In this document: piece after piece, positions 18,277-35,874 of the stretch | Numbering within the stretch: the first letter of the stretch is position 1 | Layout: the number at the start of each line of letters is the position of its first letter | Source: Bacteriovoracaceae bacterium | Lineage (GTDB): Bacteria > Bdellovibrionota > Bacteriovoracia > Bacteriovoracales > Bacteriovoracaceae | DNA: 53,361 nucleotides | Assembly (NCBI GenBank): GCA_020630335.1 | Contig: JAHDBN010000001.1 | Span: 241,525-294,885, forward strand | Reading direction: 5' to 3' | Made by a program: the position numbers and the translations under genes | Notes under the pieces: model-generated | Told to the model about the DNA's origin: nothing | Seen by the model: only the letters and a program-made list of their open reading frames with translations | Database searches by the model: none

Positions 18277-18396
18277 TATTAATTATATAGCAATTTAAAT
18301 TGAACATTCATAAGGTTAAAATTAATCCTACAAATAAATATATTTTTTTAATCTTTCGTTTAAATAACTAAACCACAAAAATTTTAACAGTGATTC

Positions 18397-19468: not shown

Positions 19469-19556
19469 TGGCGGAGAACGAGGGATTCGAACCCCCGGAA
19501 GCGCAAACCTCAACAGTTTTCAAAACTGCCGCCTTCGACCACTCGGCCAGTTCTCC
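19469..19556 (-). tRNA. tRNA-Ser (anticodon UGA)
   Basis: A complete class II tRNA on the minus strand. The acceptor stem is GGAGAAC/GTTCTCC with discriminator G and encoded CCA (19469-19471). The anticodon stem GCAGT/ACTGT has loop TTTGAAA, giving anticodon UGA (serine UCA family). There is a long variable arm, and the T loop is GTTCGAATC. It lies 51 bases downstream of the serS stop codon on the same strand, so tRNA and synthetase genes are linked. Confidence 0.96.
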
Positions 19557-19578
19557 GTTTTGTATTTCGAGTTCCTAA

Positions 19579-19607
19579 AATATAATGAATCTACTTAAAA
19601 ATGACAA
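19579..19607 (-). promoter_or_regulatory. candidate promoter for tRNA-Ser(UGA)
   Basis: On the minus strand TTGTCA (19607-19602) and TATATT (19584-19579) are separated by exactly 17 bases. The mature tRNA 5' end is 22 bases further on, a normal distance for a short leader removed by RNase P. The -35 begins directly after the serS stop codon, so the tRNA could be transcribed independently as well as by read-through. Confidence 0.5.
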
Positions 19608-20879
19608 TTAAGAAGGCTTAATAACTTCTATTCCACCCATATAATCAACAAGCTTTTCAGGAACTACAATAGAACCATCAGCTTGTTGATAATTTTCTAA
19701 AATAGCGACGACTGTTCTCCCAACCGCTAAACCTGATCCGTTTAGTGTGTGCGCAAAATAGTTCTTTTTATCTTTCTTGTATCTAATTTTTGCTCTTCGG
19801 GCCTGAAAATCCCAACAATTTGAAATACTAGAAATTTCTCTATATTTTTCTTGTGAAGGAAGCCAAACTTCTAAGTCATAAGTCTTTCTAGCACCAAAGC
19901 CAATATCTCCCGTACAAAGCCTAACCGCTCTATAAGGAAGTTTTAATTCCTCTAAAATCATACAACCACTTTCAAGCATTTCTTCATGCGCCTTCAATGA
20001 ACTTTCAGCATCTGTGATTTGAACCATTTCAACTTTACTAAACTGATGCATTCTAATTAAACCTCTAGTATCTTTTCCATAAGATCCAGCTTCACTTCTA
20101 AAGCAAGGTGTAAAAGAAACATATTTTTTTTGAAAGCTCTCCTCTTTTAGAATTGTCTCTCTTAAAAGATTTGTCACAGGAACTTCTGCAGTTGGTATTA
20201 AATACCAATCTCTACCTTCAATTTTAAATAAATCTTCTCCAAACTTAGGAAGTTGCCCTGTACCATAAAGAGTAGATGCTTGAACAATATAAGGAGGAAT
20301 GATTTCTTCATATCCTCGCTCACAATGAAAATTAATCATATAATTGGCTACTGCTCTCTCAAGCCTTGCAAGCATTCCTTTGTAAACAACAAACCTTGCT
20401 CCAGTTAATTTAGCAGCTGTTTCAAAATCTAGCATGCCAAGCTCTTCACCCAAAGTGGCATGATCTTTTATTTTAAATGAAAAACTTGGGATATCTCCAA
20501 ATTTTTTTATTTCTAAATTTGATTCTTCATCATCTCCAATCGGCGTATCTTCTTCAATCAGATTTGGAATTCCTAAAAGAATATCTGATATTTTCTTATC
20601 TACTTCTCCAAGATTTTTTTCTTGCTCTTCTATACTAGCTTTTAATTTTGAAACCGCAGCTTTTTCATCATCTGCATTTTCTCCAGATTTTATTTTTAAT
20701 CCAATCTCTTTTGACTTTGAATTAATCTCAGATCTAGTATCTTCAACTATTGAAATAAGTTTTTTTCTTTCACTGTTTAAATCTATTATTTTATCAATCA
20801 CAGAAGTATCAAACTTTCTCATTTTTAGATTTTGAATTACTTCATCTTTTTTTTCTTCAATTAACCTTACGTCTAACAT
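19608..20879 (-). CDS. serS: seryl-tRNA synthetase
   Basis: This 423-residue class II synthetase attaches serine to tRNA-Ser (and tRNA-Sec where present). The N-terminal long antiparallel coiled coil (about 30-105) grips the long variable arm of tRNA-Ser. The catalytic domain shows PTAEVPVTN (229-237), motif 2 FTPCFRSEAGSYGKDTRG with RMHQFSKVE (257-284), and motif 3 NGSGLAVGRTVVAILENY (380-397). Length is normal. The ATG follows GTGGAG and lies two bases after the TPR gene's stop, indicating tight co-transcription or translational coupling. The cognate tRNA-Ser(UGA) gene lies directly downstream. Confidence 0.97.
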   Translation of the reverse strand: MLDVRLIEEKKDEVIQNLKMRKFDTSVIDKIIDLNSERKKLISIVEDTRSEINSKSKEIGLKIKSGENADDEKAAVSKLKASIEEQEKNLGEVDKKISDILLGIPNLIEEDTPIGDDEESNLEIKKFGDIPSFSFKIKDHATLGEELGMLDFETAAKLTGARFVVYKGMLARLERAVANYMINFHCERGYEEIIPPYIVQASTLYGTGQLPKFGEDLFKIEGRDWYLIPTAEVPVTNLLRETILKEESFQKKYVSFTPCFRSEAGSYGKDTRGLIRMHQFSKVEMVQITDAESSLKAHEEMLESGCMILEELKLPYRAVRLCTGDIGFGARKTYDLEVWLPSQEKYREISSISNCWDFQARRAKIRYKKDKKNYFAHTLNGSGLAVGRTVVAILENYQQADGSIVVPEKLVDYMGGIEVIKPS

Positions 20880-20881
20880 TT

Positions 20882-23779
20882 CTACTCCACTAATTTTAAA
20901 AAACTTAAAATCTCATCTTTTTCTGGCGCATCAGGAAACAGCTCTAAATATGCCTTATACTTAACAACTGCTTCTTTAGATTTACCCATATTTTTATACA
21001 CTTCTCCAAGTTCAAAGTATAGAAAATGCTCATCTCCATCAACCTCTAAAGCTTTTTCAAAAAGCTTTGCTGCATCTGGCAATTGGCCACTCCGGGCTTT
21101 TAATCTTGCAAAAGTCTTGAGCATTTCCATATCTTCAGAGTCATATCTCTTTGCTTTTTCAAGTTGCAAAGCTGCACCACCATAATTTTCTTTTTTTATC
21201 ATGATCTTCGCTAACTCTACATAGCCATAAGTAACTCTAGAATTTGATTCAATTTCTGCCTTGGCATACTCTTCTGCCTTATCTAAATTCCCTTTATTCT
21301 TATAAATCTGAGCCAGTAAAGAATTCACCTCGGGAAAAGAAGATATTCTTGAATGAATTCTTAATAAGGTTTTTTCTGCATCCTCAAACTTCAAAAGCCT
21401 CATATAAGCCTTAGCCAATTCAACGCCAACTTCATGATTTGCTGGATTTACTAATATATATTTTTTAGCATATTCTATAGCGGTCTCATCATTTTCATCC
21501 ATACTAGCTGCATTCATCATAAATAAATAAAAATCTTCATTCTCTTTATCATCGATAACTACTTTTTTAACTAAATCTTCAAAGCTAGATATTTGTCCAC
21601 TTTCATAATAAAAAATTGCAATTTGATTATTTATCTTTGTGCTCTCGATAAATTTCTTTTTAATACTTCTAAGATAACCTATCGCTGTTTCTACACCGTC
21701 TTGTTCTTTAATAATTTTTGCATATAAAATTCTATAATCTATATTAGAAGGATCATATTTAATAGCATCCAAAATTCTTTCTTTAGCTTCTCGTATATGC
21801 CCATTATCAAATCTAATTTGAGAAATTTTATAATGGACATTATCATTGATTCTATTTTCTTTAATAGAAAGATTTAACCAATAGAGTGCTTTTGCATATT
21901 TCTCTTGTTTAAAATGATAGTCTGCAACAACTTCTTTATATCGAGAGTTACTTGAAAGAGGCATTGTATTAATTTTAGATATTAATTCATTTGCTTTTTT
22001 AAATTGATATGAATCAACATAGGTACTTAAAAGGTTTATACTTTGTCCCCCAAGTCCTTTTTCTTCTCTTTGAACTTTTTCAAAGTTTTTAATAGCTTCT
22101 CCGTAAAATCCAAGTTTTTTTTGTATTTCAGCTAAATTTAATTTTGATTCTCTAGAAGCATGAGAGTCCACTGCGTCAATAGCAGCTGAAAGAGATTGTT
22201 CAAACTTTTTTTCTTTTATATATTTCTTTGATTTTCTAATACTATCTATTGATTTAGATCTATTAATTAGCTTGCTTGTCTCAGAATATTTATCACTTAC
22301 ATCTAGATCTGATAAGCTTGTAACAATTTCAGATTCAGGATTCAAAGCAATTGCACTATCAAAATATTTTTTTGCATCTTTAAAACTTCCATTCATTGCA
22401 CTGATAACACCCATAGATTCTAAATAAAAAGCTTTATATTTTTGATGATGATCAAATTCTCTTTTCTTGAAATTCTTTAGTAAATCAAAAGCTTTATCAT
22501 AACTTTTTTCTAATATATAAAATTTTACACCATGCCTTAATATTTCTAAGCTATCTGGATAATTCTTATAAGCGTCTCTGAAAACATCTCCATATTCTCT
22601 AAATCTATTCTCCATTAATAGATACTCTAAGAGAGATGTATAAGCATAAGCCGATTCTTTTCTCGACTTAATAACTTGGTCTTTAATTTCATCTATTTCT
22701 TCATAGTTCCCTAGTATCTGCAATGATCTAAAATAAAAACTAAGCGTTAATGCGGTAACTTTCTTGCTAATTTTGAAATAATTATTTACTAAAAATTTTA
22801 CAGCAGCATGCTTTCCAATATTATGATAAAAAATAACCCATGCTTCAAAGTTCATTGGTTGCTTGTAAATTTTATCTTCTCCTAAAACATCAAGCAAAGA
22901 ATCTATTACATTGGCATCTTTACTTTTTTCTTTTGAGAAAGGAAGTAATAATGAATAAGTTTTCGCGAGGTTTAAAATAGAATCTTTATTATAAAAATAA
23001 TCCAATGACTCTTTGTAAACTTCAGATTTTCTAATCAAATCTTCATACTTATAAAAACTAAATTTTTTGGCTCTTGAAGCAATAGAATTTGATTTATCAA
23101 TATTTCCATTAACGACTTCTTGGATGTCAGTAATTTGAGGGTAGTAGAATTCTTCTTTTATTACTTCTTCTATTTTCTTTTCTTCCGTATCGATAAACAA
23201 GAATCCCAACATGCACAACAGTATGGCCAAAAATAATGTTCTATTAACAGGATCCTTAGCAGCTTTTTTAACTTCATCAACATCTCTTCTTTTTTTTCTT
23301 AAGAGATCTTCAGTTTCTTCTGCTTCGATTAAGGCATCTTGAAATTCTTCTAAATCATAAAATTTAGTTTTATCAATAGAAGATTTTTTGTTTTGGAGTT
23401 GCTTAAAAGTGTTATCTATATTTTTTTTAATTTTTTCTGTTTTTCTTAACAACTCCTTTTGAGTATCAACTGAAATAATTGTTTTATTTAAATCAGCACT
23501 TGAAACTAATTCACTTTCATCATTATCTTGTTTTTTTATAAAAATCTTAGAAGCTTCTTTCTTATTTTTTAGATTTTTAAATACTGAGTTTGTAAGTGTC
23601 TCTTCAGAGTTATTTAAATTTATGTGTTGTGTATAATCATTTAATGACTTCCATTCATCTTCAAATTCACCTTTAATTTTAATAAATCTAGGAAGGAGCT
23701 CTTTTTTTAGCATAGACTCAATATCATCTAATCGATAAGGCCCAAGCTCTTCATTATTATGTTTAACGTAGTATTTCAT
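20882..23779 (-). CDS. GYF2-TM-TPR membrane protein, unknown role
   Basis: A 965-residue protein with three parts. Residues 1-50 resemble a GYF_2 domain (YYVKHNNEELGPYRLDDI, later DEWKSL), a small proline-peptide-binding-like fold. Residues about 51-178 are charged and partly coiled coil. Residues 180-196 form a single transmembrane helix (RTLFLAILLCMLGFLFI). The remaining 760 residues are helical repeats, mainly TPR units (for example AKKYFDSAIALNPES, AKERILDAIKYDPSN, AEEYAKAEIESNS, AAKLFEKALEVDGDE). The predicted topology is GYF2 in the cytoplasm and TPRs in the periplasm. It lies between nuoN (25 bases) and serS (2 bases) on one strand. It may be a scaffold or assembly factor; no direct evidence connects it to complex I. 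Confidence 0.82.
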   Translation of the reverse strand: MKYYVKHNNEELGPYRLDDIESMLKKELLPRFIKIKGEFEDEWKSLNDYTQHINLNNSEETLTNSVFKNLKNKKEASKIFIKKQDNDESELVSSADLNKTIISVDTQKELLRKTEKIKKNIDNTFKQLQNKKSSIDKTKFYDLEEFQDALIEAEETEDLLRKKRRDVDEVKKAAKDPVNRTLFLAILLCMLGFLFIDTEEKKIEEVIKEEFYYPQITDIQEVVNGNIDKSNSIASRAKKFSFYKYEDLIRKSEVYKESLDYFYNKDSILNLAKTYSLLLPFSKEKSKDANVIDSLLDVLGEDKIYKQPMNFEAWVIFYHNIGKHAAVKFLVNNYFKISKKVTALTLSFYFRSLQILGNYEEIDEIKDQVIKSRKESAYAYTSLLEYLLMENRFREYGDVFRDAYKNYPDSLEILRHGVKFYILEKSYDKAFDLLKNFKKREFDHHQKYKAFYLESMGVISAMNGSFKDAKKYFDSAIALNPESEIVTSLSDLDVSDKYSETSKLINRSKSIDSIRKSKKYIKEKKFEQSLSAAIDAVDSHASRESKLNLAEIQKKLGFYGEAIKNFEKVQREEKGLGGQSINLLSTYVDSYQFKKANELISKINTMPLSSNSRYKEVVADYHFKQEKYAKALYWLNLSIKENRINDNVHYKISQIRFDNGHIREAKERILDAIKYDPSNIDYRILYAKIIKEQDGVETAIGYLRSIKKKFIESTKINNQIAIFYYESGQISSFEDLVKKVVIDDKENEDFYLFMMNAASMDENDETAIEYAKKYILVNPANHEVGVELAKAYMRLLKFEDAEKTLLRIHSRISSFPEVNSLLAQIYKNKGNLDKAEEYAKAEIESNSRVTYGYVELAKIMIKKENYGGAALQLEKAKRYDSEDMEMLKTFARLKARSGQLPDAAKLFEKALEVDGDEHFLYFELGEVYKNMGKSKEAVVKYKAYLELFPDAPEKDEILSFLKLVE

Positions 23780-23804
23780 TATATCTAAATAAAAGTTTTA
23801 AAAC

Positions 23805-25268
23805 TTAATTTAGATATATTTTAGCAGAAGAATAGAGATGATAGATATTATTCCAGAAAAGACCAAGGAAAATGATAGGGATTACCATTCCAATGACATA
23901 CACTCTAGAAGCCAAAGAGTAACTTTCAATTTTAGCTTCTCCATCAGCATCATCAAAAACCATCGTTCTTGCGAGTTTTAAATAATATACCAATGAAATA
24001 ACTGAGTTTATCGCTGCTATAACTGATAATGTATATAAACCCTGCCCTACAGCTGAAGAAATAATATTAAACTTAGCAATAAAACCACCAAAAGGAGGCA
24101 AACCAGCTAATGAAAACAATGCAATTAGCATTGAAACCCCAAGGATAGGATGAGTTTTAGCTAACCCTCTAAAATAAATAGCGTCATCACTTCCAGTTCT
24201 ATTAACAATCATTGTCGTTACAAAAAATGCAACCAAAGTCATAAAAGTATAAATTAAAGTATAGAAAAGAATTGAACTCATTCCTTTTCCACCAAAAGTT
24301 AAGACACCAATTAGAATTAATCCAACATGTCCAATAGAAGAAAATGCAAGCATACGCTTAACACTTTTTTGATTAAGAGCTGATAAATTTCCTACAGTCA
24401 TAGTAAGAGCTGCTATTACAGCAATCATGCTATTCCAAACTTGAGTGGTCATATTTTCAGTTCCAAAAAATGAATAAGTCACCCTAGCAACAACTGCTAT
24501 TCCTGCAATCTTTGGAACTATTGAAAAGAATGCTGTTACTGGAACAGGTGATCCCTGATACACATCTGGAGACCACATATGAAAAGGAAAACAAGCTATC
24601 TTGTAACCAATCCCTACAAAAAACATTAATAAAGAAAGAATAACTGCAATATTAAAACCTTCTAAAGCTTTAATTCCCGCAATAATGTCTGGAAACTGAA
24701 TACTTCCAAACAAGCCATAAAGATGACTCATTCCAAATAGCATAATTCCAGCAGTCACTCCTCCATATAAAGCATATTTAATTCCAGCTTCACTAGACAA
24801 GTGATCTCTTCTTTTTAAAGAAGTCATAACATAAGAAAGAATAGAAAGAGTCTCTACTCCTAGATATAGAGTAAGCATATTATTAGAAGACGCTAAAAGC
24901 ATTCCTCCGACCAATACTCCAACTGCCATAATTAAATATTCTGATTTTAATTCATCATAAATATCAATAGATTTATGACTTATATAAAAAGTTCCTAAAG
25001 TTCCAATAACCATAGTCATTTTCATCATCGTGCTAAAAGAATCAATAACTACTGCATTTGCAAATATTCCTTGAGAATCTATTCCTAAGTTTTTATACAA
25101 AGAAAAAAGACAAAGAAGCATTCCAATAAAACCAGTAACATAAACGAAAGTTCTTCTTCTTTCGTTATTAGCATAAGCTGTTTCCATAAATAAAAGCGAA
25201 CACATTGTAACGATTGCTATCATCTCAGGAATATAAAAAGAAAGATTTGTTAATAAGTTTATTGTCAC
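23805..25268 (-). CDS. nuoN: NADH-quinone oxidoreductase subunit N
   Basis: A 487-residue antiporter-like subunit of complex I and one of three proton-pumping modules of the membrane arm, with about 14 transmembrane helices. Characteristic stretches are YLGVETLSILSYVMTSLKRRD, EAGIKYALYGGVTAGIMLFGMS, FKIACFPFHMWSPDVYQGSPVPVTAFFS (near 225-250) and KRMLAFSSIGHVGLILIG. These contain the conserved Glu in helix 5 and the Lys residues used for proton transfer. It starts at GTG with AAGGTATAGAA upstream. It is the last subunit gene of the cluster, nine bases after nuoM. Confidence 0.95.
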   Translation of the reverse strand: MTINLLTNLSFYIPEMIAIVTMCSLLFMETAYANNERRRTFVYVTGFIGMLLCLFSLYKNLGIDSQGIFANAVVIDSFSTMMKMTMVIGTLGTFYISHKSIDIYDELKSEYLIMAVGVLVGGMLLASSNNMLTLYLGVETLSILSYVMTSLKRRDHLSSEAGIKYALYGGVTAGIMLFGMSHLYGLFGSIQFPDIIAGIKALEGFNIAVILSLLMFFVGIGYKIACFPFHMWSPDVYQGSPVPVTAFFSIVPKIAGIAVVARVTYSFFGTENMTTQVWNSMIAVIAALTMTVGNLSALNQKSVKRMLAFSSIGHVGLILIGVLTFGGKGMSSILFYTLIYTFMTLVAFFVTTMIVNRTGSDDAIYFRGLAKTHPILGVSMLIALFSLAGLPPFGGFIAKFNIISSAVGQGLYTLSVIAAINSVISLVYYLKLARTMVFDDADGEAKIESYSLASRVYVIGMVIPIIFLGLFWNNIYHLYSSAKIYLN

Positions 25269-25277
25269 TTCTATACC

Positions 25278-26804
25278 TTATTGAAATTGAGCCATTAACT
25301 CTACAAGCTTACCTACTGAAGCTCTCATAATATTTAGTATGGGTGATGGATACACGCCAAAAACAATAACTGCTACACATAATGGAAGCATATAAGCAAT
25401 TTCTCTATAATTCATATCTGAATAACTAAGAACTTCTTCAGAAGGTTCTCCGAAAAACATTCTTTTATACATCCATAATAGATAAGCCGCTCCAATTAAT
25501 AATCCCATGACAGCAATTACAGTAATAGTTGTAAATCTTTCATAGATCCCTAAAAAGATTAATGCCTCTGAAATAAATCCTGATAATCCTGGAAGACCAA
25601 GAGAAGCAAACATACCAATGATGAAAATCGTTGTATAAGTTGGCATATGCTTAGCTAATCCACCATAACCTTTAGATCCATCTGGTCTTACAATCCATCT
25701 ATGATGAGATCTTTCATAAATAACACCAATCATTAAGAACATCATCGCCGTACTTGTTCCGTGATTAAACATTTGAAGAACAGCACCATTCATTCCTTGA
25801 GTTGTCATTGCTGCCATTCCCATCATCACAAACCCCATGTGAGAAACTGAAGAATAAGCAACCAACTTTTTAACATCACTTTGTGCCATTGCACAAAAAG
25901 CTCCATAAAGAACAGAAATCACACCAAGAACTGCAATGATTGTTGAATACTCAACTGCTGCAGCTGGAAAAATAGGAAAAGCTATTCTTAAAAATCCATA
26001 AGTTCCCATTTTAAGTAAAACACCTGCAAGAATAACTGATACTGCTGTAGGTGCTTGAACGTGAGCATGTGGAAGCCAGGTATGGAAAGGAAATACTGGA
26101 ACTTTAATAGCAAAACCTAAGAACATGGCCCAGAAAAATAACTTATTAAAGGCCCATTCAGATCCAAAAAGCATCACAGTTTTATCTGTAAACTTTCCTC
26201 CCTGGTGAGCAAGAATATTAAAAGCATCAACTGGATTTTCAGCAGAATAATAAAGAGCAATAATACCAATTAGCATTATTATTGATCCAAAAAATGTATA
26301 TAAGAAAAATTTAACAGCTGCGTATTCTCTATTTTCTCCACCCCAAATTCCAATAAGAAAAAACATTGGAAGAAGCATTACTTCCCAATAAACGTAAAAA
26401 AGGAAAAAGTCTAAAGCAAAGAAAACACCAAAAACTGTAGATTGGAGCATTAAGAGTAATGCAAAATAAGCTTTTACATTTTTTTCAACAGTCCAAGAAC
26501 TTAGGATACAAATAAAAAATAATAAACCTGTAAGGATAGTCATTGGCATTGAAATTCCATCAACACCTAGAGAATAAAAAATATTAAAATCTCCAATCCA
26601 AGGTACTTTAACTAAAAAATCAGGCTGCATTCCCGCAACGCTTGTATCAAAGTTACAATAAAGTAAAATTGTCCAAACGAAAGTAACAGCAGTAGTTGCC
26701 AAAGCTGTATACCTAATCGCCATTTTGTTTTTAGAAGGAATTAACAATATAGCTAAAATTCCTATGACAGGTGTCCATAATATCCAATTTAATAATCCGC
26801 TCAA
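25278..26804 (-). CDS. nuoM: NADH-quinone oxidoreductase subunit M
   Basis: A 508-residue antiporter-like proton-pumping subunit with about 14 helices. Signature segments are YVYWEVMLLPMFFLIGIWGG with the conserved Glu, KFFLYTFFGSIIMLIG, FAIKVPVFPFHTWLPHAHVQAPTAVSVILAG with the conserved Lys and LPHAH loop, and KKLVAYSSVSHMGFVMMG. It starts at TTG, supported by AAGGAG five bases before. It lies between nuoL and nuoN. The length is typical. Confidence 0.96.
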   Translation of the reverse strand: MSGLLNWILWTPVIGILAILLIPSKNKMAIRYTALATTAVTFVWTILLYCNFDTSVAGMQPDFLVKVPWIGDFNIFYSLGVDGISMPMTILTGLLFFICILSSWTVEKNVKAYFALLLMLQSTVFGVFFALDFFLFYVYWEVMLLPMFFLIGIWGGENREYAAVKFFLYTFFGSIIMLIGIIALYYSAENPVDAFNILAHQGGKFTDKTVMLFGSEWAFNKLFFWAMFLGFAIKVPVFPFHTWLPHAHVQAPTAVSVILAGVLLKMGTYGFLRIAFPIFPAAAVEYSTIIAVLGVISVLYGAFCAMAQSDVKKLVAYSSVSHMGFVMMGMAAMTTQGMNGAVLQMFNHGTSTAMMFLMIGVIYERSHHRWIVRPDGSKGYGGLAKHMPTYTTIFIIGMFASLGLPGLSGFISEALIFLGIYERFTTITVIAVMGLLIGAAYLLWMYKRMFFGEPSEEVLSYSDMNYREIAYMLPLCVAVIVFGVYPSPILNIMRASVGKLVELMAQFQ

Positions 26805-26819
26805 GATTACTCCTTAAAA

Positions 26820-29003
26820 TTAAAAACCAAGAAACATAGCAAGTGCTACAATCGCTCCAACTAGAGCAATTAAATACTTTTGTATGTATCCAGATTGAAC
26901 TGATTTTGTTACTAAACTAAAAATTTCAGTACCTACAGCTGTTCCATCAACTGCGACACTATCTACAACTACTCGATCAAACCAATGACTAGCTTTAAAG
27001 ATAACTTTATTCACCTTAGCCCATCCATCAATGGCGTAACGATCGTAGATTCCAGAGTCGAACCAAGATAAGAAATTATTAAGTTTTAATAATCCCTTCT
27101 TGATAAACACATCTATATATAACCAATCCATGAAATATTTATTTTTAATAGCTTTTACCCAAAAAGATAATTTGTCGTAAAAAAATGAAGGACTAATCCA
27201 TCCAAAAATATACATTCCAAAAGCTAATAAAATTGAAAAAGCGACAATTATTACTGAAAGAATTGCTCCTTCCACATGGGCATGATGAAGATCATTATAA
27301 GCTTCTTCACTGTTAATATCATAACCAGGGCCAGCAAATCCTGATTGATGTTCATAATTTGTTTGAGGTAAAGGAGTTTTATCTCTGTCATCTATAAAAC
27401 TAAAAATTTGTTTTTTTCTACCTTCAAATTTTTCTAAATTTGTTTGCACAGGAGCTTCAACTAAAACTTTAAACCAATCTTTTCCTTCAGGGCTAACAAC
27501 TTTTATAATTCCCTGACCAGTTAAAGATCCAGAGAAAAATACACCTAAAGTGAAAACTGAAAGAATTAATAATGGAACATTTTGATTCCAAGTTAACTTT
27601 TCTTTATGACAATGATCATATTTATCTTTGTCTCTATTCTTTCCATGAAAGGTTAAGAACATCATTCTAAACATATAAAAAGGTGTTAAGAATGCTCCTA
27701 CAAAACCAAGAATTGCTGGAATAAAAAACGCATTATTTGTATAAAGCATAAAAAGAGCATCACCTAAAATTCTATCTTTTGAAACAAATCCAGAAAAGAA
27801 AGGAACACCAGCAATCGCTAAGGTACAGCACCACATAGCAATCCAAGTATAAGGAAGCTTTTTCTTTAAACCACCCATATTAGGCATATACTTATCATGA
27901 TATGAATGAATCACTGAACCCGCAGATAAAAATAAACACGCTTTAAAAATTGCATGAGTAACTAAATGCATAAAAGCAGCGTTATAAGCTCCAACTCCAA
28001 TTCCTAAAACCATATAACCAAGTTGAGAAATTGTTGAATAAGCAAGAACTGCTTTTAAGTCTTTTTGAATTAATGCAATCGTAGCTGCTCCAAAAGCAGT
28101 AATCCCACCAATATAAGCAATCATTGTATTCAGCTCACCAACATACATAAGTGGATACATTCTCAATGAAAGATAAACCCCAGCTGCAACCATAGTCGCT
28201 GCATGAATAAGAGCTGAACAAGGCGTAGGTCCCATCATCGCATCAGGTAGCCAAACTTGAAGTGGGAATTGAGCTGACTTGCCAATAGTTCCACAAAAAA
28301 TACAAAAACCAGCAAAGCTCGCTAAAGCAATTCCAAAAACACTTTTTCCTTCAAAAGCACCTTCAGCTATAGCTGCATAAATACTTGGAATATCAACACT
28401 TCCCACAACGGCCCAAATAGCTAAGATTCCAAGAAGGAAGAAAACATCTCCAACTCTTGTAGTCATAAAAGCTTTTAATGATGCATTTCCAGCTTCTTCT
28501 TTTTCAAAATAAAAACCAATAAGAGAATAAGAACAAAAACCCATCATCTCCCAAAACATGAATATACTTAACAAGTTATCTGAGAGAACAAGTCCAAGCA
28601 TCGCTGATGTAAATAAAGAAAGATAAACAAAAAACCTCTCCCACCTAACATCGCCCTTCATATACCATGTAGAGAAAATATGAATTAAAGACGCTACTCC
28701 AGTAACCATTAAAAGCATGATTGCTGTCATGTTATCTATATATATACCTAGGTTAATTTTAAATACATTTTCACCGTGACTTAGGTCAATCCAATTAAAA
28801 ATTTTGTGAATATAATAATCAGTATTATAAACACTCATAAAGTCACAAAAAACTGCTAATGCAAAAAAGAAAGATCCAACTATTCCTGCAACACTTACCC
28901 AAGGAACAATCTTTGGGATTTTTTTTATAAAAATACAGTTAAGAACAAATGCAAAGAATGGTAATAAAAAAATCGGTGCAATGGTACTAATAGTATAATT
29001 CAT
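26820..29003 (-). CDS. nuoL: NADH-quinone oxidoreductase subunit L
   Basis: At 727 residues this is longer than the E. coli subunit (about 613). It is the distal proton-pumping antiporter-like module, with the extra C-terminal lateral helix that runs along the membrane arm. Motifs include FWEMMGFCSYSLIGFYFEKEEAGNAS, KSAQFPLQVWLPDAMMGPTPCSALIHAATMVAAG and LKAVLAYSTISQLGYMVLGIG. The extra length is in the C-terminal third, which has a hydrophilic, histidine-containing segment (DKYDHCHKEKLTW) and a charged loop near 540-590 before the last helices. ATG with AGGTAGGAAA upstream. Confidence 0.96.
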   Translation of the reverse strand: MNYTISTIAPIFLLPFFAFVLNCIFIKKIPKIVPWVSVAGIVGSFFFALAVFCDFMSVYNTDYYIHKIFNWIDLSHGENVFKINLGIYIDNMTAIMLLMVTGVASLIHIFSTWYMKGDVRWERFFVYLSLFTSAMLGLVLSDNLLSIFMFWEMMGFCSYSLIGFYFEKEEAGNASLKAFMTTRVGDVFFLLGILAIWAVVGSVDIPSIYAAIAEGAFEGKSVFGIALASFAGFCIFCGTIGKSAQFPLQVWLPDAMMGPTPCSALIHAATMVAAGVYLSLRMYPLMYVGELNTMIAYIGGITAFGAATIALIQKDLKAVLAYSTISQLGYMVLGIGVGAYNAAFMHLVTHAIFKACLFLSAGSVIHSYHDKYMPNMGGLKKKLPYTWIAMWCCTLAIAGVPFFSGFVSKDRILGDALFMLYTNNAFFIPAILGFVGAFLTPFYMFRMMFLTFHGKNRDKDKYDHCHKEKLTWNQNVPLLILSVFTLGVFFSGSLTGQGIIKVVSPEGKDWFKVLVEAPVQTNLEKFEGRKKQIFSFIDDRDKTPLPQTNYEHQSGFAGPGYDINSEEAYNDLHHAHVEGAILSVIIVAFSILLAFGMYIFGWISPSFFYDKLSFWVKAIKNKYFMDWLYIDVFIKKGLLKLNNFLSWFDSGIYDRYAIDGWAKVNKVIFKASHWFDRVVVDSVAVDGTAVGTEIFSLVTKSVQSGYIQKYLIALVGAIVALAMFLGF

Positions 29004-29007
29004 TTTC

Positions 29008-29325
29008 CTACCTAGTTAACTCTTCTCTTAATTCACTTGCTTCATCTATATGAATAGTTTCTTTTACTTGAAAGAATCTAATTACAATTGCCAAGCCAAC
29101 AGCAGCTTCAGCGGCTGCTATCACAATAATAAATAATGAAAAAATATGCCCATCTAAGTTATTTGCAGCATATTTAGAATAAGCTACAAAATTTAATGCA
29201 GCAGAATTTAAAATTAATTCGATCCCTAATAAAATCGCAACAATGTTTTTCCTAGAAATCATCACTACTAATCCGGTAACCATTAGAATCATCGAAACGA
29301 ATAAATAAGCTTTTAAAGATATCAT
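29008..29325 (-). CDS. nuoK: NADH-quinone oxidoreductase subunit K
   Basis: A 105-residue membrane subunit of complex I (MrpC-like), with three transmembrane helices. It contains the conserved glutamates of the proton channel: Glu in IVAILLGIELILNSAALNFVAYS and Glu in AAAEAAVGLAIVIRFFQ. Length is exactly typical. The ATG overlaps the nuoJ stop codon (TGATG), indicating translational coupling. It is four bases upstream of nuoL. Confidence 0.96.
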   Translation of the reverse strand: MISLKAYLFVSMILMVTGLVVMISRKNIVAILLGIELILNSAALNFVAYSKYAANNLDGHIFSLFIIVIAAAEAAVGLAIVIRFFQVKETIHIDEASELREELTR

Positions 29326-29915
29326 CAGTGGTGCTCCTCATCGTGATGATGATCGTCAACAATATCATCTATAAAAGCAGGTCGCTCTTTTCTAGGTCTC
29401 GCAATAATTGCTGCTCCTACTAAAGCTCCTAATAATAAAACTGAAGAAATCTCAAAAGCTACTAAATGATCAGTCACTAGCAACTCACCAAGCCTTTCTA
29501 TTGTTGGAGTGTAAGAATCATCTGATTCTATTACTTTTATAACTGAGAAAAGATTTCTGAAAAAATAAATAAGAGTGCATCCAAAAACAAAAGCTACACC
29601 AACTCCCCACATAAAAGTATATTTGTTACCCATAGATGGAAATAAATTTAAGATTTTTTGAGTCTGGCTTTGATAATCTTTTCCACCTGTAAGCATTACT
29701 GCAAAAAGCATCAATATAACTACACCACCAACATAAACCATTATTTGAGTAGCTGCTACAAAATCAGCACCAAGAGTTAAGTATAAACCTGCAACACCAA
29801 TTAAAACTCCAAGAAGATAGACACAAGAATGCATTAGATTTTTTGTCCACATCATTAAAATACATGAACTAATAACTAATAAAGACGAAACTGAAAATAA
29901 AATATTAGCAAACAT
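29325..29915 (-). CDS. nuoJ: NADH-quinone oxidoreductase subunit J
   Basis: A 196-residue membrane subunit with five helices. MHSCVYLLGVLIGVAGLYLTLGADFVAATQIMVYVGGVVILMLFAVMLT is the diagnostic first half, containing the pi-bulge helix linked to quinone-coupled switching. The C-terminus is unusual: after the last helix the tail becomes Asp/His/Glu-rich (DDIVDDHHHDEEHH), which could bind divalent metal or simply be variable. The start overlaps the nuoH stop (TAATG) and the stop overlaps the nuoK start (TGATG). Confidence 0.95.
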   Translation of the reverse strand: MFANILFSVSSLLVISSCILMMWTKNLMHSCVYLLGVLIGVAGLYLTLGADFVAATQIMVYVGGVVILMLFAVMLTGGKDYQSQTQKILNLFPSMGNKYTFMWGVGVAFVFGCTLIYFFRNLFSVIKVIESDDSYTPTIERLGELLVTDHLVAFEISSVLLLGALVGAAIIARPRKERPAFIDDIVDDHHHDEEHH

Positions 29916-31033
29916 TAATGCACACCACTTCCAAAAAATAAATCAAACATCGATCGGCCATCAAAAGCCACTATCCAAATTGCAGTTCCCACTAAATTAA
30001 AAATTGCAATAGGCGTTAGATATTTCCAACAAATACTCATAAGCTGATCAACTCTTAATCTTGGAAAAGTCCATCTAACCCAAATTACTACATAATAAAG
30101 AGCACATGTTTTTAAAAACAATGATCCAAATTGAAGAATCTCATTTGAAAAAGTTCCCTCTAATAGACCAAAAGGAATATGGTATCCTCCAAGAAATAAG
30201 CTAACAGAAACAGCACTAACTACAAAAATTTCTATATATTCTGCTAAAGCAAATAAACCAAATCTAATTCCAGTATATTCAGTATGATAGCCTGAAACTA
30301 ATTCAGACTCAGCTTCTGGTAAATCAAAAGGTGCTCTGTTTGTTTCTGCTAAAGTTGAAATAAAAAATACAAAAAAACCAATAAAGGTAAATGGGTTATG
30401 AAAGATATACCAATTCCAAGGCATACCCGCTTGCTCAGCAACCAAAGTATTAAAAGACAAACCTCCAGCAATTAAAACAATCATCATAATTGTTAGAGTC
30501 ACAGGAATTTCATATGAAATAATTTGTGATGCTCCCCTCATTCCCCCAAGCAATGACCACTTCGAATTTGAAGCATAACCACCAAGAAAAATTCCAACTC
30601 CAACCAATGAAGAAATTGCAATCGCATAAAAAACACCAACATTTAAATCTGTTAATATTAAATTTTTTGAAAATGGCATTACTGCAATCGTGCAAACAAC
30701 CCCAAATAGAGATAAGAAAGGTGCAAGATAGTAAAGAAACTTGTCTGCACTTCGTGGCATAATATCTTCTTTAGAGATCATCTTAATACCATCTGCGATT
30801 AATTGAAATAATCCATATGGCCCAACCCTATTCGGTCCAATCCTAGCTTGAAGATCTGCTGAAATTTTTCTCTCTGCAATAGTTCCAAAGCCACCAACAG
30901 TAGCAAGTATGACTAAAAATAAAGTACAAAAAGCGAAGAAAATTAAAAATGAAGTAAACCCAACCCCGAGAGAATCAGCAAGGTGCTGCACGGGAGCAAA
31001 ACTTAAAAAATATCCAGCAATTGTGTTTTCCAT
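29915..31033 (-). CDS. nuoH: NADH-quinone oxidoreductase subunit H
   Basis: A 372-residue subunit with eight helices that forms the quinone chamber at the junction of the membrane and peripheral arms. Diagnostic sequences are ERKISADLQARIGPNRVGPYGLFQLIADGIKMISKED (about 53-89), GWASNSKW-type GGYASNSKWSLLGGMRGASQIISYE, and AETNRAPFDLPEAESELVSGYHTEYTGIRFG near 235-264 with the conserved glutamates, then the C-terminal RLRVDQLM. Start and stop each overlap neighbouring genes by one base (TAATG). It normally follows nuoG or nuoD; here it directly follows nuoA. Confidence 0.97.
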   Translation of the reverse strand: MENTIAGYFLSFAPVQHLADSLGVGFTSFLIFFAFCTLFLVILATVGGFGTIAERKISADLQARIGPNRVGPYGLFQLIADGIKMISKEDIMPRSADKFLYYLAPFLSLFGVVCTIAVMPFSKNLILTDLNVGVFYAIAISSLVGVGIFLGGYASNSKWSLLGGMRGASQIISYEIPVTLTIMMIVLIAGGLSFNTLVAEQAGMPWNWYIFHNPFTFIGFFVFFISTLAETNRAPFDLPEAESELVSGYHTEYTGIRFGLFALAEYIEIFVVSAVSVSLFLGGYHIPFGLLEGTFSNEILQFGSLFLKTCALYYVVIWVRWTFPRLRVDQLMSICWKYLTPIAIFNLVGTAIWIVAFDGRSMFDLFFGSGVH

Positions 31034-31446
31034 TATTTAATCTTTGTTGTTCTTTTATAACTTTTTACCCAATCTAAATCACCTTTTTTCCAACAATAAG
31101 CAATGCCTTCTAAAAGAACTGAAATAAAACTTAAAAAGATAATTAAAATATAAGTTCCGTTTCCAAGAGCATTCATTTTTTTAAAAATTGCAGCAACAGG
31201 AAACATTAATACTGACTCAACATCAAAAATAATAAATATAAGGCCAACAACATAAAACCTAACATTAAACATAGACCATGCAGAACCTTCTGGAACTTCA
31301 CCACATTCGTAAGGAAGATCTTTATCTCCTCCAGGTTTTTTAGGACTTAATAAATGTGCAGCCAATAAAGCACCACCAAATAACAATGCTGCAAGAAGCA
31401 TCATAATAGCGATTGGCATAAACACGTTGAGTGTTTGATTTGACAT
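31033..31446 (-). CDS. nuoA: NADH-quinone oxidoreductase subunit A
   Basis: A 137-residue membrane subunit with three helices. The conserved loop is KDLPYECGEVPEGSAWSMFNVRFYVVGLIFIIFDVESVLMFP. This Cys-containing loop contacts the quinone site, and the acidic residues of helix 2 are conserved. TTG (31449) and ATG (31446) are adjacent candidate starts behind GGAGA; ATG is preferred. It is the first gene of the nuo cluster, with a divergent promoter region shared with mfd. In usual operons nuoB follows nuoA; here nuoH does, with a TAATG overlap. Confidence 0.95.
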   Translation of the reverse strand: MSNQTLNVFMPIAIMMLLAALLFGGALLAAHLLSPKKPGGDKDLPYECGEVPEGSAWSMFNVRFYVVGLIFIIFDVESVLMFPVAAIFKKMNALGNGTYILIIFLSFISVLLEGIAYCWKKGDLDWVKSYKRTTKIK

Positions 31447-31578
31447 CAATGAAAATTCTCCATAAATGTTGTTAAACTGATGTTTGTCAGATTACACCAA
31501 CTCTATAATGTTGAAAACACTTAGAGTGACTTTAAAACACTATAGAATCAACAGATGTCTATTTAATACTATTTGTTT

Positions 31579-34500
31579 ATGAGTGATTATTTATCTAAAT
31601 TCCAGGAATGGCTAAAAGTTGATCAACTTGAATCTTTTGAATTTAATGGTATTTCACTAGAAGAATGGATTATTACTCATTTATTTACGCCCGAAGATTC
31701 AGATTCCTTTTCTGGTAAAAATTTTTTATTTATATGCAAAAACCAATCTTCTGCTTTCAAACATTATAATAGATTCAAAGATAAATCTTTTTTATTTTAC
31801 CAACCTGACTATTCTCCTTATGAACAATTTATTGTTAGTGATTCCGATTTTTCTCAATATTTAGATAAGCTTCATAAAATTAGTAATACCAAAAAGACAA
31901 TTATCTTCACGACATTTCGATCTATTTTTCAAAAGCTCCCTCCGAAATCATTTTTCCAAGATTCAACCTTTGAAATAAAACAAGGAGAAACTCTTCGAAT
32001 TTCTGATTTAAAAGACATGCTTCACTTAATTGGATTTAAAGAAAGTTTCAACAGTTCGAGCAACCAAACATATTGTCAAAAAGGAGAAATCTTTGACATC
32101 AGAGTTAATGACAATTCATTTTATCGTTTACAGTTTTTTGATGATGAAGTTGAAAAAATTTATAACGTTGATCCATTAAGTTTTAAATCTATTAAAGATC
32201 TACCTCTTCAAAATATAACTCTTGGGTCAAACCTAAATTCAATTTATGACAAGTCTCTTTTAACGAATTTAAGAGAAAATATACCACTTCCAAAAACTAG
32301 TTTTAAAAATAAACTTCTAACAAGAAATGATTTATTTTCAAAATTACAAAATTCTGAATTAGTTGAAAATATTCACTATTTACTACCACTTTTTTTCAAA
32401 GAACAATCTAATCTTCTTAATTATTTACCTAGCTATCACCTTGTCTTTGAAAACTTTGAATTAAGCAAAAGTGATTATTTATACGAACATGATTTAATAA
32501 AAGAATCTTATGAAATTTCTCAAAGTGATATTTCACATGATTCAATTTTTCCAAAACCTGAAGAGCTATTTGATTCTCTTAAAGTTTTGAACAAGAAGTT
32601 TGTAAGTATAAATTCCCTTTCTATGGAAAGTACTCAAGGTTCTTTAAATCAAAATAAAATTTACATAGATTCAAAAAATCTAAAAGAATTTCTAGGTTTA
32701 AAAGGGCAATACGAAAAATCAGATTTTATTAATACTTTATTTGATAAAATCAAAAATCAAAAAGAAAATTTGCGAAAAATATATTTTACAGGAAAACGAT
32801 TTGAAGAAATAAAAGAATTTTTCGAGAATCATGACATCTCTATTACTAACTTAGTTCATATAAAAAAAGATTACGAAAAAAGCTTTGTAAACTCTTTAAA
32901 TAATTCTCTTTATCTTTCCTCTAAAGATATTTTCTATTCAAAAAAAACAAGGAAAGTTTCTAAGAAAAAACAAAATATTGATTTTTTCGCAGAACAACTA
33001 TCTAGCCTAAAAGCTGGAGATTTCATTGTTCATAAAAACTTTGGAGTTGGTAAATTCGTACAAGTAACTAATCTTCAAAACAACAATGGTTCTGATTTTA
33101 TTGAAATAGAATACAAAGATAAGGATAAGGTTTATGTTCCTGTTTATAACCTTGATCTTATACAAAAATATGCTGATGCAAACTCAAGTTGTACTATTTC
33201 TGATTTAAAATCTAAGAAATTTAATTTAAAGAAATCAAAAGCTAGACTTTCTGCTAAAAAGCTTGCATTTGATATTATCAAATTACAGGCTGAAAGAAAT
33301 GCCCATAAAGGACACGCCTTTTCTCAACCTGGATCTGATTACATAGAGTTTGAGAATGATTTTCCATACGAGCTAACAAAAGATCAAGCAAGTGCAGTTG
33401 ATGAAATTCTAACTGACATGTGTAGTGATAAACCAATGGATAGATTAGTTTGTGGTGATGTTGGTTTTGGTAAAACAGAAGTTGCTATGAGGGCGGCTTT
33501 TAAGGCCATCGAAGATGGGAAGCAAGTAGCTGTCTTGGTTCCAACAACAATTTTATCTCTACAGCATTTTATGAATTTTAAAGAACGTTTTAAAAAGTTT
33601 GCTGTAAATATTGATTATATATCTAGATTTAAATCTACAAAAGAATCTAATGAAATTTTTGAAAAAATTCAAAATGCTAATTTAGATATTATTGTTGGGA
33701 CTCATAAATTATTATCAAATAAAGTAAAGTTTAATAATCTCGGCCTTGTAATAATAGATGAAGAGCACAGATTTGGAGTTGCTCAAAAAGAAAAACTAAA
33801 ACTTCTGAAAGCAAGTACTGATTTCTTAACATTAACTGCTACACCTATACCAAGAACTTTGCAGCTTGCATTTCTTGGAGTTAAAGATGTTTCTCTTATT
33901 CAAACACCTCCACCAAAAAGACAATCGATTAATACATTTATGGTAAGAGATGACCACTTAACAATAAAAAATGCCATAGAAAAAGAATTAAAAAGAAATG
34001 GGCAAGTTTTTATTATTCATAACAAGGTTCAAGATATTGAAATTTTAGTTTCAAAAATACGATCATTAGTTCCTGAAGCAAAGATTGTTTATGCCCACGG
34101 ACAATTAAACGAAAAAGATCTTGAAAAAAGAATTCAAAGTTTTTTTGATAAAAAATTTGATATTTTAATTTCTACAACAATTGTAGAATCAGGAATTGAT
34201 ATTCCAACTGCAAACACTATGATTATTAATAATTCACATACTTTTGGTTTGGCTCAACTGCACCAACTACGAGGAAGAATTGGAAGATCGACAAGAAAGG
34301 CCTTTTGCTATTTTCTGATTCCTAAATCTAAAAAACTCAGCAAAGTAGCAGAAAAAAGATTAGAGGCCTTACAACGATATAGTGACCTTGGTTCTGGTTT
34401 TGCTCTAGCTAGTTCTGATTTAGAAATAAGAGGGGCGGGCGATATTTTAGGTGCGGAACAATCAGGGCATATTCAAAATATTGGAATGGAGCTTTATAGT

Positions 34501-35007
34501 GAAATGCTCAATGATGCCATCCAAGAAATTAAAGGTGAAAAAACTTCTATTGAAAAATTTGATATAGATGTAAATTTAACTTTCCCAAGCTATATTTCTA
34601 AAAATTATATTCAAGATCAAAACACAAGACTTAAGTACTATAAAAAAATATCCAATGCTCAAAAAGATGAGGTTCTAAATTCTTTAAATGAAGAACTTAT
34701 TGATATATACGGGAGTGTTCCTGAAGAAACGCAAAACTTGTTTAATTTAATTAAAATTAGAAATTTACTTTCACATCTACCTGTAACTCAGATCAAAATA
34801 AACGAAAAGTTTATAAGCTTAAAACTTAACGAGAGATTCTTATCTGAAAACCCTGAAAAACGAAACAAAATAGTCAACTTTTTCATGTCAGACTTAGGTA
34901 AATTTCAGCTGAAACCAAATTTTTTAGTAAGAATTAATACCCAACAAAAAAGCTCTGAGAAATCTTTTGATAATTTAAAGTCAATTTTTTCGACCTTATT
35001 GGTTTAA
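31579..35007 (+). CDS. mfd: transcription-repair coupling factor
   Basis: This 1142-residue DNA translocase removes stalled RNA polymerase and recruits UvrA for repair. The N-terminal UvrB-like region (about 1-350) is divergent. The CarD-like RNA-polymerase-interaction domain is near 475-545 (LKAGDFIVHKNFGVGKFVQV, then KVYVPVYNLDLIQKY). The RecG-like helicase has Walker A CGDVGFGKTEVAMRAAF (near 628-640), IIDEEHRFGV (DEEH box), LTATPIPRTL and QLRGRIGRS. The C-terminal TRCF domain starts near 980 (DVNLTFPSYI). TTG at 31573 is an alternative start two codons upstream; ATG is chosen. A TATAAT at 31504-31509 may be its -10 region. Confidence 0.96.
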   Translation: MSDYLSKFQEWLKVDQLESFEFNGISLEEWIITHLFTPEDSDSFSGKNFLFICKNQSSAFKHYNRFKDKSFLFYQPDYSPYEQFIVSDSDFSQYLDKLHKISNTKKTIIFTTFRSIFQKLPPKSFFQDSTFEIKQGETLRISDLKDMLHLIGFKESFNSSSNQTYCQKGEIFDIRVNDNSFYRLQFFDDEVEKIYNVDPLSFKSIKDLPLQNITLGSNLNSIYDKSLLTNLRENIPLPKTSFKNKLLTRNDLFSKLQNSELVENIHYLLPLFFKEQSNLLNYLPSYHLVFENFELSKSDYLYEHDLIKESYEISQSDISHDSIFPKPEELFDSLKVLNKKFVSINSLSMESTQGSLNQNKIYIDSKNLKEFLGLKGQYEKSDFINTLFDKIKNQKENLRKIYFTGKRFEEIKEFFENHDISITNLVHIKKDYEKSFVNSLNNSLYLSSKDIFYSKKTRKVSKKKQNIDFFAEQLSSLKAGDFIVHKNFGVGKFVQVTNLQNNNGSDFIEIEYKDKDKVYVPVYNLDLIQKYADANSSCTISDLKSKKFNLKKSKARLSAKKLAFDIIKLQAERNAHKGHAFSQPGSDYIEFENDFPYELTKDQASAVDEILTDMCSDKPMDRLVCGDVGFGKTEVAMRAAFKAIEDGKQVAVLVPTTILSLQHFMNFKERFKKFAVNIDYISRFKSTKESNEIFEKIQNANLDIIVGTHKLLSNKVKFNNLGLVIIDEEHRFGVAQKEKLKLLKASTDFLTLTATPIPRTLQLAFLGVKDVSLIQTPPPKRQSINTFMVRDDHLTIKNAIEKELKRNGQVFIIHNKVQDIEILVSKIRSLVPEAKIVYAHGQLNEKDLEKRIQSFFDKKFDILISTTIVESGIDIPTANTMIINNSHTFGLAQLHQLRGRIGRSTRKAFCYFLIPKSKKLSKVAEKRLEALQRYSDLGSGFALASSDLEIRGAGDILGAEQSGHIQNIGMELYSEMLNDAIQEIKGEKTSIEKFDIDVNLTFPSYISKNYIQDQNTRLKYYKKISNAQKDEVLNSLNEELIDIYGSVPEETQNLFNLIKIRNLLSHLPVTQIKINEKFISLKLNERFLSENPEKRNKIVNFFMSDLGKFQLKPNFLVRINTQQKSSEKSFDNLKSIFSTLLV

Positions 35008-35058
35008 ATAATAAAAATCATTATAATTTATCTAAGTTTATCAAATAAGGATAATTAT

Positions 35059-35859
35059 ATGAAAAATTTAATTTTAACTCTTTTTATCGCTCTACCTTTA
35101 GTTTCTTTTAGTCAAAAAATTGTAGCAGAAATTGATGGTGAGAAAATAACATCAGAAGAACTTAATACTGTTTATGCTGATAGGCTTTTATATCCATCAC
35201 ATAAGAAAATTTCTAAAGAAGGTGTTTTACAAGATATTATAAATAGAAGAATTGCTAAAAAAGCAGCCGCTAAAGAAAAACTCAATGAAGATAGAATCAT
35301 TAAAGAAAGAATTGATAGCATTCTTCATGATGAATTAATTAATAAAAATTTAAGTGATAAGTTTGAAAAAATTAAAATAACTGATGCTGAAGTAAAAAAG
35401 TATTACAAGTCACATCCAGAATATAAAACAAGTCATGTTCTTTTTAGAGTAAAAGCAATTCCTACGAAAAAGGAATTAGAAAAAGCTTATGAGTTTATGT
35501 ACAAAGTTTATAAAGAAATAGAAAAAGTACCTTCTAAATTTGAAGAAGTTGCAAAAAAATATTCACAAATTTCAACAAATGAAAGTGGTGGAAATATAGG
35601 ATATCTTCCTCATACTTCGATGGCGCCAGAGTATTATGAAGCAATAAAAAATAAAAAAATTGGTTTTATTTCGCAGCCTGTTAGAACACAATTTGGATAT
35701 CACATTATCAAGGTAACTGGTCAAAAAGATTATAAATCTATTGATAAAAATCTATACAAAAGAATCATCTTTGATCAAAAAAGAGATCAGATCGTTCAAG
35801 ACTATTATGCATCACTTGGTAAAGGTGCTAAAATCAAAATCTATAAGAAAAACCTATAA
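35059..35859 (+). CDS. periplasmic parvulin-type peptidyl-prolyl isomerase
   Basis: A 266-residue exported PpiC/parvulin protein. It has a signal peptide (KNLILTLFIALPLVSFSQ), an N-terminal SurA/PrsA-like helical chaperone region (about 20-115), and one parvulin domain (about 120-225): KTSHVLFRVKAIP, FEEVAKKYSQISTNESGGNIGYLPHTSMAPEYYEAI and QPVRTQFGYHIIKVTG. The conserved active-site-type positions (H in SHVLF, GYHIIKV) are present, so it should be catalytically competent. It lies 51 bases after mfd and 15 bases before a SurA-like gene, so it likely acts in outer-membrane protein folding. Confidence 0.92.
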   Translation: MKNLILTLFIALPLVSFSQKIVAEIDGEKITSEELNTVYADRLLYPSHKKISKEGVLQDIINRRIAKKAAAKEKLNEDRIIKERIDSILHDELINKNLSDKFEKIKITDAEVKKYYKSHPEYKTSHVLFRVKAIPTKKELEKAYEFMYKVYKEIEKVPSKFEEVAKKYSQISTNESGGNIGYLPHTSMAPEYYEAIKNKKIGFISQPVRTQFGYHIIKVTGQKDYKSIDKNLYKRIIFDQKRDQIVQDYYASLGKGAKIKIYKKNL

Positions 35860-35874
35860 ACTTAGAGAATTAAA

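Follow-up and report, generated by a model that had tools for sequence, protein, structure and literature searches.

Headless complex I, an enzyme without the NuoE, NuoF and NuoG subunits, is already known in company with the NADH:quinone oxidoreductase NQR: sections of PMC7002350 and PMC6560451 describe Bacteroidetes (Bacteroides fragilis, whose enzyme is called NUO, and Prevotella) in which a type 1 NADH dehydrogenase (NDH-1) lacks NuoEFG and NQR is encoded in the same genome. In Desulfitobacterium hafniense and in the Ignavibacteria and Marinimicrobia, the 11 genes nuoABCDHIJKLMN form one contiguous operon, and the direct donor of headless complex I, D. hafniense included, is called an open question in a section of PMC11238625. 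Here we analyze a 53,361-nucleotide stretch of DNA (the window) from a Bacteriovoracaceae bacterium (GenBank assembly GCA_020630335.1, contig JAHDBN010000001.1, positions 241,525 to 294,885 of the forward strand) that carries the genes for the membrane arm of complex I, nuoA-H-J-K-L-M-N, as a cluster of their own; the remaining four genes of an 11-subunit headless enzyme, nuoB-C-D-I, are found on a different contig of this genome.

The subunit set is thus the same as in D. hafniense, Ignavibacteria and Marinimicrobia, and in our sample both halves have their nearest relatives among proteins of the latter two groups, but the genes here form two clusters divided by arm rather than one operon. 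As in the Bacteroidetes, NuoEFG are lacking and NQR is present in the genome; B. fragilis, however, has one operon missing nuoE, nuoF and nuoG (according to the part of PMC7002350 that deals with it), whereas here there are two arm-wise clusters, in a genus without a match to POR_N (2-oxoacid:ferredoxin oxidoreductase). Sulfurospirillum multivorans also encodes its complex I, for which ferredoxin or flavodoxin is the likely donor, in two clusters, nuoGHIJKLMN and nuoABCDEF, but its split does not follow the arms (nuoA lies with nuoB–F, and nuoG and nuoI with nuoH–N) and it has genes named nuoE, nuoF and nuoG (PMC11238625). The complex I of Campylobacter jejuni is flavodoxin-linked and likewise not NADH-fed (Weerakoon and Olson 2008, as cited in a passage of PMC11238625), but it keeps NuoG (PMC7002350), for which we find no match here. 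The arm-exact division, kept across an order and repeated in it, is what we have not found in print: open-licence papers yielded no description of an arm-wise split or of its repetition, and a term search of the main text of a 2025 survey of complex I (PMC12361115) gave no mention of Bdellovibrio.

Results

Membrane-arm and peripheral-arm genes lie in separate clusters

The original prediction, made from the letters of the window, was of a complex I cluster at 23805–31449 with the seven membrane-arm genes in the order nuoA-H-J-K-L-M-N. The open reading frames and their best NCBIfam matches bear this out on the minus strand:

nuoA, 31033–31449, minus strand: 138 residues; listed start TTG, with ATG as the next codon; K/D/E positions conserved
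nuoH, 29915–31033, minus strand: 372 residues; five E. coli glutamates conserved; one-base overlap with nuoA
nuoJ, 29325–29915, minus strand: 196 residues; one-base overlap with nuoH; Y59 kept, E80 replaced by Asp
nuoK, 29008–29325, minus strand: 105 residues; equivalents of E36 and E72 conserved; one-base overlap with nuoJ
nuoL, 26820–29003, minus strand: 727 residues; antiporter-like pump subunit; checked residues conserved (7/7)
nuoM, 25278–26804, minus strand: 508 residues; antiporter-like pump subunit; checked residues conserved (6/6)
nuoN, 23805–25268, minus strand: 487 residues, GTG start; antiporter-like pump subunit; checked residues conserved (6/6)

For each of the seven genes the best NCBIfam match is its own Nuo family, with scores below the curated cut-off of the model concerned for NuoA (whose best matches are NuoA models), NuoJ and the best-matching NuoK model. 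The one-base overlaps foreseen at the A/H, H/J and J/K junctions are there (TAATG, TAATG and TGATG), and with gaps of only 4, 15 and 9 bases at K/L, L/M and M/N the cluster looks like a tight operon. None of nuoB, nuoC, nuoD, nuoE, nuoF, nuoG and nuoI is among the open reading frames listed in or beside it (18000–36000). That these seven are missing from between nuoA and nuoH, as had been proposed, therefore needs amending only for nuoI, whose usual place is between nuoH and nuoJ, as in the E. coli and Ignavibacteria loci. A peripheral arm encoded in the same transcript, just outside the usual order, can be dismissed, the neighboring frames containing none of its genes.

We searched the source genome, a 2.36 Mb draft in 39 contigs (98.35% complete), for the missing subunits. 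NuoB (PF01058) and NuoD (PF00346) are each encoded by a single gene, both on contig G000:C2 (labels beginning with G, C and L are our own for genomes, contigs and loci), and family matches place them in a run of four adjacent genes, nuoB-C-D-I (L002, 10955–13697), where NuoI was identified by a dicluster domain, by aligning it to E. coli NuoI and by its position after nuoD. All 11 subunits, NuoA, B, C, D, H, I, J, K, L, M and N, are thus encoded in the genome. At E ≤ 0.001 there is no match to NuoE (PF01257) in this one genome, nor to NuoF (PF01512, TIGR01959) or NuoG (TIGR01973) in any of the four genomes of the genus; among 14 control genomes the same models matched in 9 (PF01512), 8 (TIGR01959), 12 (TIGR01973) and 7 (PF01257). 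With 11 subunits present and NuoE, NuoF and NuoG without a match, the genome encodes a headless complex I: the NADH module (N-module) NuoEFG of the 14-subunit NADH-quinone oxidoreductase was not found, and neither, at the same threshold, was the NuoG retained by the flavodoxin-linked complex I of the Campylobacterota. The original prediction had left two explanations standing, and each survives in part. The peripheral arm is indeed encoded elsewhere, as far as NuoB, C, D and I are concerned, without E, F and G; and a different electron input is probable to the extent that, with E-F-G not found, the electron source probably differs from NADH, the quinone module (Q-module) being the normal one, given the NuoB, C, D and I cluster in the same genome.

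A group 4 [NiFe] hydrogenase was considered and rejected, the only PF00346 protein of the genome being a NuoD with the quinone-type motif GPQHPATHG and without the C-terminal CxxC (the large subunit of such hydrogenases has Ni-binding cysteine pairs). As a marker for NuoF across the order, PF01512 proved too broad, with matches in 61/129 genomes that include several proteins of the wrong size or with a poor score against the NuoF model; we therefore adopted TIGR01959 with its family cut-off, which is reached in 40/129 genomes.

The split is conserved across the order

A NuoH match occurs in 107 of the 129 genomes of the order and is strong in 103, that is, in all except G062, G064, G126 and G127, where it is weak. 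Gene order was read from loci picked from the search hits (with NuoH or with NuoD) rather than at random. All 20 membrane-arm loci fetched from relatives have the order A-H-J-K-L-M-N, and all 15 fetched peripheral loci consist of B-C-D-I without membrane genes. Among named genomes with NuoD at 67–94% identity, 42/42 loci lack A, H, J–N, E, F and G in the DNA examined; 40 of them have B-C-D-I and two are cut at a contig end. In G104, a genome in one contig, the nuoH of this type lies at 280 kb and the nuoD at 3,269 kb, so that the clusters are more than 1 Mb apart. The shared order, the separate B-C-D-I loci and the split within a single contig together exclude an assembly fault, and the claim that no assembly gap or mis-join brought nuoA next to nuoH is upheld: the 11-subunit headless complex I is encoded as two arm-wise clusters. 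Judged by NuoD, Bacteriovoracaceae and Halobacteriovorax are the closest relatives with a name, and only these names suggest a predatory lifestyle.

Both halves keep functional residues and group with contiguous enzymes

Functional residues, given by their E. coli numbers, were checked against the MG1655 proteins. NuoB has all four N2 cysteines, and the two [4Fe-4S] motifs of NuoI and the quinone His and Tyr of NuoD are conserved, as is the series of pump Lys, Glu and His residues in NuoL, M, N, K and H; the change of E80 to Asp in NuoJ is the only one among the residues listed. The quinone His/Tyr pair is kept in all 16 NuoD proteins of the window type.

The best matches from outside the order come from 11-subunit enzymes found in Ignavibacteria and Marinimicrobia, and many of these are encoded by one operon A-B-C-D-H-I-J-K-L-M-N without E, F and G. 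Trees were built for B+D+I and for H+L+M+N from 36 sets, namely 16 of this type, three 14-subunit enzymes (G104, G004 and E. coli) and 17 outside relatives. The 16 form one clade in each tree, with support of 100 (B+D+I) and 85 (H+L+M+N), values that were read after re-rooting and may be off by one node. In these trees of limited sampling both halves adjoin the same 12 contiguous 11-subunit relatives from the Ignavibacteria and Marinimicrobia, and in both the window-type sequences group with the 11-subunit enzymes rather than with the three 14-subunit ones sampled. The distance matrices of the two halves are correlated over the 16 genomes (r 0.82; 0/2000 permutations as high), an agreement that, as far as distances can tell, shows common inheritance of the halves and is no proof of contact between them.

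A-H-J-K-L-M-N and B-C-D-I each equal the ancestral order minus the genes of the other arm, and the simple route to both clusters would be for the operon to have been duplicated and each copy then to have lost the complementary set. By our arithmetic, five blocks (A; BCD; H; I; JKLMN) sorted at random would be divided exactly by arm with a chance of about 1 in 15, so that a single case of an arm-wise split is weak evidence for selection.

A second complex I is split in the same way

Other genomes of the order have a second complex I, of 14 subunits and, in the trees, of distinct ancestry. Its operon is contiguous in G104, G040 and G063 (L236, L263 and L264, with L236 and L264 truncated where the stretch ends), and it too is found split by arm, in the genus that we label g4 and in three other genera (G057, G065 and G069). 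At 11/11 tandem loci (L219, L220 and L245–L253) the A-H-J-K-L-M-N genes of the 14-subunit type come immediately behind the 11-subunit membrane arm, in the same orientation. These loci were chosen for having two NuoH about 7.6 kb apart (in other g4 genomes the NuoH copies are on different contigs); several of them run off the end of the stretch, and in L247 no J or K was detected. The corresponding B-CD-E-F-G-I genes sit elsewhere, in seven complete loci (L237, L254 and L256–L260) and one cut by a contig end (L255). In G057 the peripheral cluster of this type is B-CD-I (L261, 1025–3820), with the stop codon of CD overlapping the start of I, so E, F and G are gone there; its NuoCD has Gln in place of the quinone His, and the genome has NqrA. 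An arm-wise split is thus seen twice in the order, in the 11-subunit and in the 14-subunit complex I.

At one of the tandem loci, that of G007 (L220, 5390–19979), the second NuoN is cut by the end of the stretch and the only NuoD found in the genome is that of B-C-D-I; the checked pump residues of the second arm match those of G004. Search results also give two NuoH and one NuoD each for G012 and G017. These three cases may reflect a gap in genomes that are 84–91% complete, or one peripheral arm serving two membrane arms.

NADH entry and NQR

The source genome carries an nqr operon on contig C3 (L238, 8182–13911), in which NqrA, B and F are confirmed by family and NqrC, D and E are named by position and size only; NQR has been noted in Bacteriovorax marinus (PMC4014512, in a passage). 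Across the 129 genomes NqrA and NuoF are almost mutually exclusive: 4 encode both, 40 only NuoF, 73 only NqrA and 12 neither of the two. The NuoF set in this count comprises the 40 genomes that pass the cut-off and four with a truncated copy (G084, G092, G093 and G096). Genomes thus tend to have either NQR or the 14-subunit complex I, and the 11-subunit enzyme accompanies either. This pattern suggests that the headless enzyme does not stand in for NADH oxidation, and its presence alongside either route fits an enzyme that does not oxidize NADH, as with the B. fragilis NUO, which had no NADH activity when measured (PMC7002350). In the source genome NADH is probably oxidized by Na+-NQR.

Lone peripheral arms

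Some relatives carry a peripheral-arm cluster on its own, made up of a lipoprotein-like protein, NuoB', NuoCD' and usually NuoI' (14/16), with F' and/or G' in three:

lone-arm loci, L265–L280; for example L266, 11085–15425, and L265, 5896–12923

These 16 loci were picked by frame length (about 540–590 residues) and form an incomplete census (L281 and L282, also fetched, are of another kind); "lipoprotein-like" is a label from the look of two N-termini, for a protein without a Pfam match. No membrane-arm genes lie near them in the fetched DNA (16/16 loci). The quinone histidine of NuoCD' is replaced in 16/16, and the four N2 cysteines of NuoB' are kept in 13/16 and missing in three that align poorly and match weakly. 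By query matches rather than a tree, NuoCD' is closest to the split 14-subunit type of genus g4 in 13/16 and to the lone type itself in three. A similar B-CD-I cluster with the quinone motif kept occurs in G040, and the NuoD search found no lone-type NuoCD in the window's own genome. To judge from their sequences, the lone peripheral arms are probably a repurposed module.

Neighboring genes

Two genes flank the membrane-arm cluster in the window:

mfd, 31573–35007, plus strand: 1144 residues; Pfam TRCF/CarD_TRCF_RID; divergent from nuoA and not part of the complex
tetratricopeptide repeat (TPR) protein, 20882–23779, minus strand: 965 residues; 25 bases downstream of nuoN on the same strand

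nuoA and mfd stand head to head, 123 bases apart. mfd is divergent from nuoA in 20/20 loci of relatives as well (at 95–341 bases in 19 and about 2.5 kb in L215) and is a landmark of the membrane-arm locus there. The TPR protein gene has a counterpart in 6/20 of these loci and is therefore probably not a core part. Further along, at 18397–19263 on the minus strand, lies the gene of a small protein that contains RCC1-type repeats and seems by eye to have a signal peptide.

On contig G000:C2, a 302-residue gene with a weak, sub-cut-off match to Peptidase_M78 precedes nuoB (L002, 9973–10881) and is found near nuoB in 52/57 loci. It is the sole neighbor common to most nuoBCDI loci, yet no redox motif is seen in it, and we rejected it as an input subunit; an assembly or regulatory link to nuoBCDI is possible.

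Discussion

We consider it very probable that the seven genes of the window encode the membrane arm of a headless complex I whose Q-module, NuoB-C-D-I, comes from the second cluster, and that the two make up one donor-fed, non-NADH, pumping enzyme operating beside NQR. Gene content, the split, the lack of matches to NuoE, NuoF and NuoG, the residues, the co-inheritance of the halves and the nqr operon are all observed in the genomes; physical assembly, the direction of electron flow, proton pumping and the lack of NADH oxidation are the predicted part of the model. In the scheme that we propose, the products of both clusters would assemble into one enzyme, a reduced soluble carrier would hand electrons to the Fe-S clusters of NuoI, and NuoB would relay the electrons through its N2 cluster to quinone at the NuoB/NuoD/NuoH site, where quinone reduction would power the proton pumps of the membrane arm, as it does in other complex I. 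With NuoE, F and G absent, the headless enzyme would not oxidize NADH, which would enter the chain via Na+-NQR.

Our guess for the donor is a dicluster ferredoxin or flavodoxin. A search of the genome with PF12838 gives one stand-alone dicluster ferredoxin:

133-residue NuoI-like ferredoxin, L262 8827–9228, minus strand (contig G000:C5): divergent from icmF (fused isobutyryl-CoA mutase)

Its nearest NCBIfam model is NuoI (51.7 bits against a cut-off of 113), and among solved structures it is best matched by the polyferredoxins of formylmethanofuran dehydrogenase, with subunit 9 of Thermus complex I behind. On this resemblance it is the first candidate for a docking ferredoxin. Reduction of such a ferredoxin by pyruvate or 2-oxoglutarate:ferredoxin oxidoreductase was set aside, POR_N having no match in 4/4 genomes of the genus. 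Over the order POR_N exceeds its cut-off in 81/129 genomes, in some of them weakly and in frames of about 1,100 residues that may belong to other enzymes. The source genome also encodes a pyruvate kinase of 554 residues with a C-terminal [4Fe-4S] dicluster ferredoxin domain (L243, 1477–3141, minus strand, contig G000:C23), a fusion that is unusual to our knowledge.

The donor could instead be NADPH, or NADH, delivered through a separate diaphorase (ferredoxin-NADP+ reductase (FNR)-like or other), docking on NuoI either directly or via a ferredoxin. In thermodynamic terms NADPH could feed such an enzyme, and the lack of a POR_N match in the genus speaks for this route; no PF01512 flavoprotein is encoded in the genome, however (FNR-type enzymes were not searched for), and the B. 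fragilis measurement cited above also counts against it, which leaves it an unlikely but serious competitor. Much less probable is that the membrane arm, alone or loosely joined to NuoBCDI, acts as a Na+/H+ exchanger of the Mrp kind, converting the Na+ gradient set up by NQR into one of protons. NuoL, M and N are homologues of Mrp proteins (their models also match Mrp families), separate expression of the arms would allow such a function, NQR and the membrane arm are both in the source genome, and a similar idea is raised for the Prevotella enzyme in a passage of PMC6560451; but the cluster and quinone ligands of NuoB, D and I are intact and these subunits are inherited together with the membrane arm, which would be unexpected if they were dispensable. 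That this is an ordinary 14-subunit complex I with nuoE, nuoF and nuoG in an unassembled gap is, for all that the draft has 39 contigs and NuoF is over the cut-off in 40/129 genomes of the order, hardly credible when NuoF and NuoG have no match in 4/4 genomes of the genus, are not among the matches listed for the near-complete G043, G045 and G046 (by elimination) and, in the genomes looked into, belong to the second, phylogenetically distinct complex I.

Several points weigh against the donor-fed, two-cluster enzyme that we favor. The model is drawn from gene content and sequence. Lacking a POR_N match, the genus would be without the enzyme that usually reduces ferredoxin, which makes the ferredoxin part of the scheme weaker, and vertical descent by itself could give co-inheritance of the halves. 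All 17 outside relatives used in the trees were found via the NuoD search, which could have overlooked closer kin of the membrane arm by itself. Neither NuoF nor NqrA occurs in 8 of the 103 genomes with a strong NuoH match, and the exclusion rule between them is therefore imperfect; NQR may not be the sole NADH dehydrogenase, type 2 NADH dehydrogenase (NDH-2) not having been searched for. It should be noted, too, that NuoG reaches the TIGR01973 cut-off in 0/129 genomes of the order, so that its absence means no match at E ≤ 0.001, and that in a draft of this contig number and completeness absence is strong, not absolute.

A broader picture is conceivable, and we put it forward tentatively, as the less likely outcome: complex I in this order may have been split at least twice into separately inherited arm modules, with arms that evolved alone. 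More than one peripheral arm might then serve the same membrane arm, and the lone peripheral arms, sometimes accompanied by NuoF'/G', would have been turned to a new, non-respiratory role after losing the quinone ligand and any membrane partner gene beside them. The lone peripheral arms are in any case worth a separate study. A headless enzyme that occurs with NQR and without POR_N in at least one genus narrows the candidates for its donor, and a division exactly along the structural arms, seen twice, is a natural experiment on how the arms of complex I are made, how they are joined and how far they are exchangeable.

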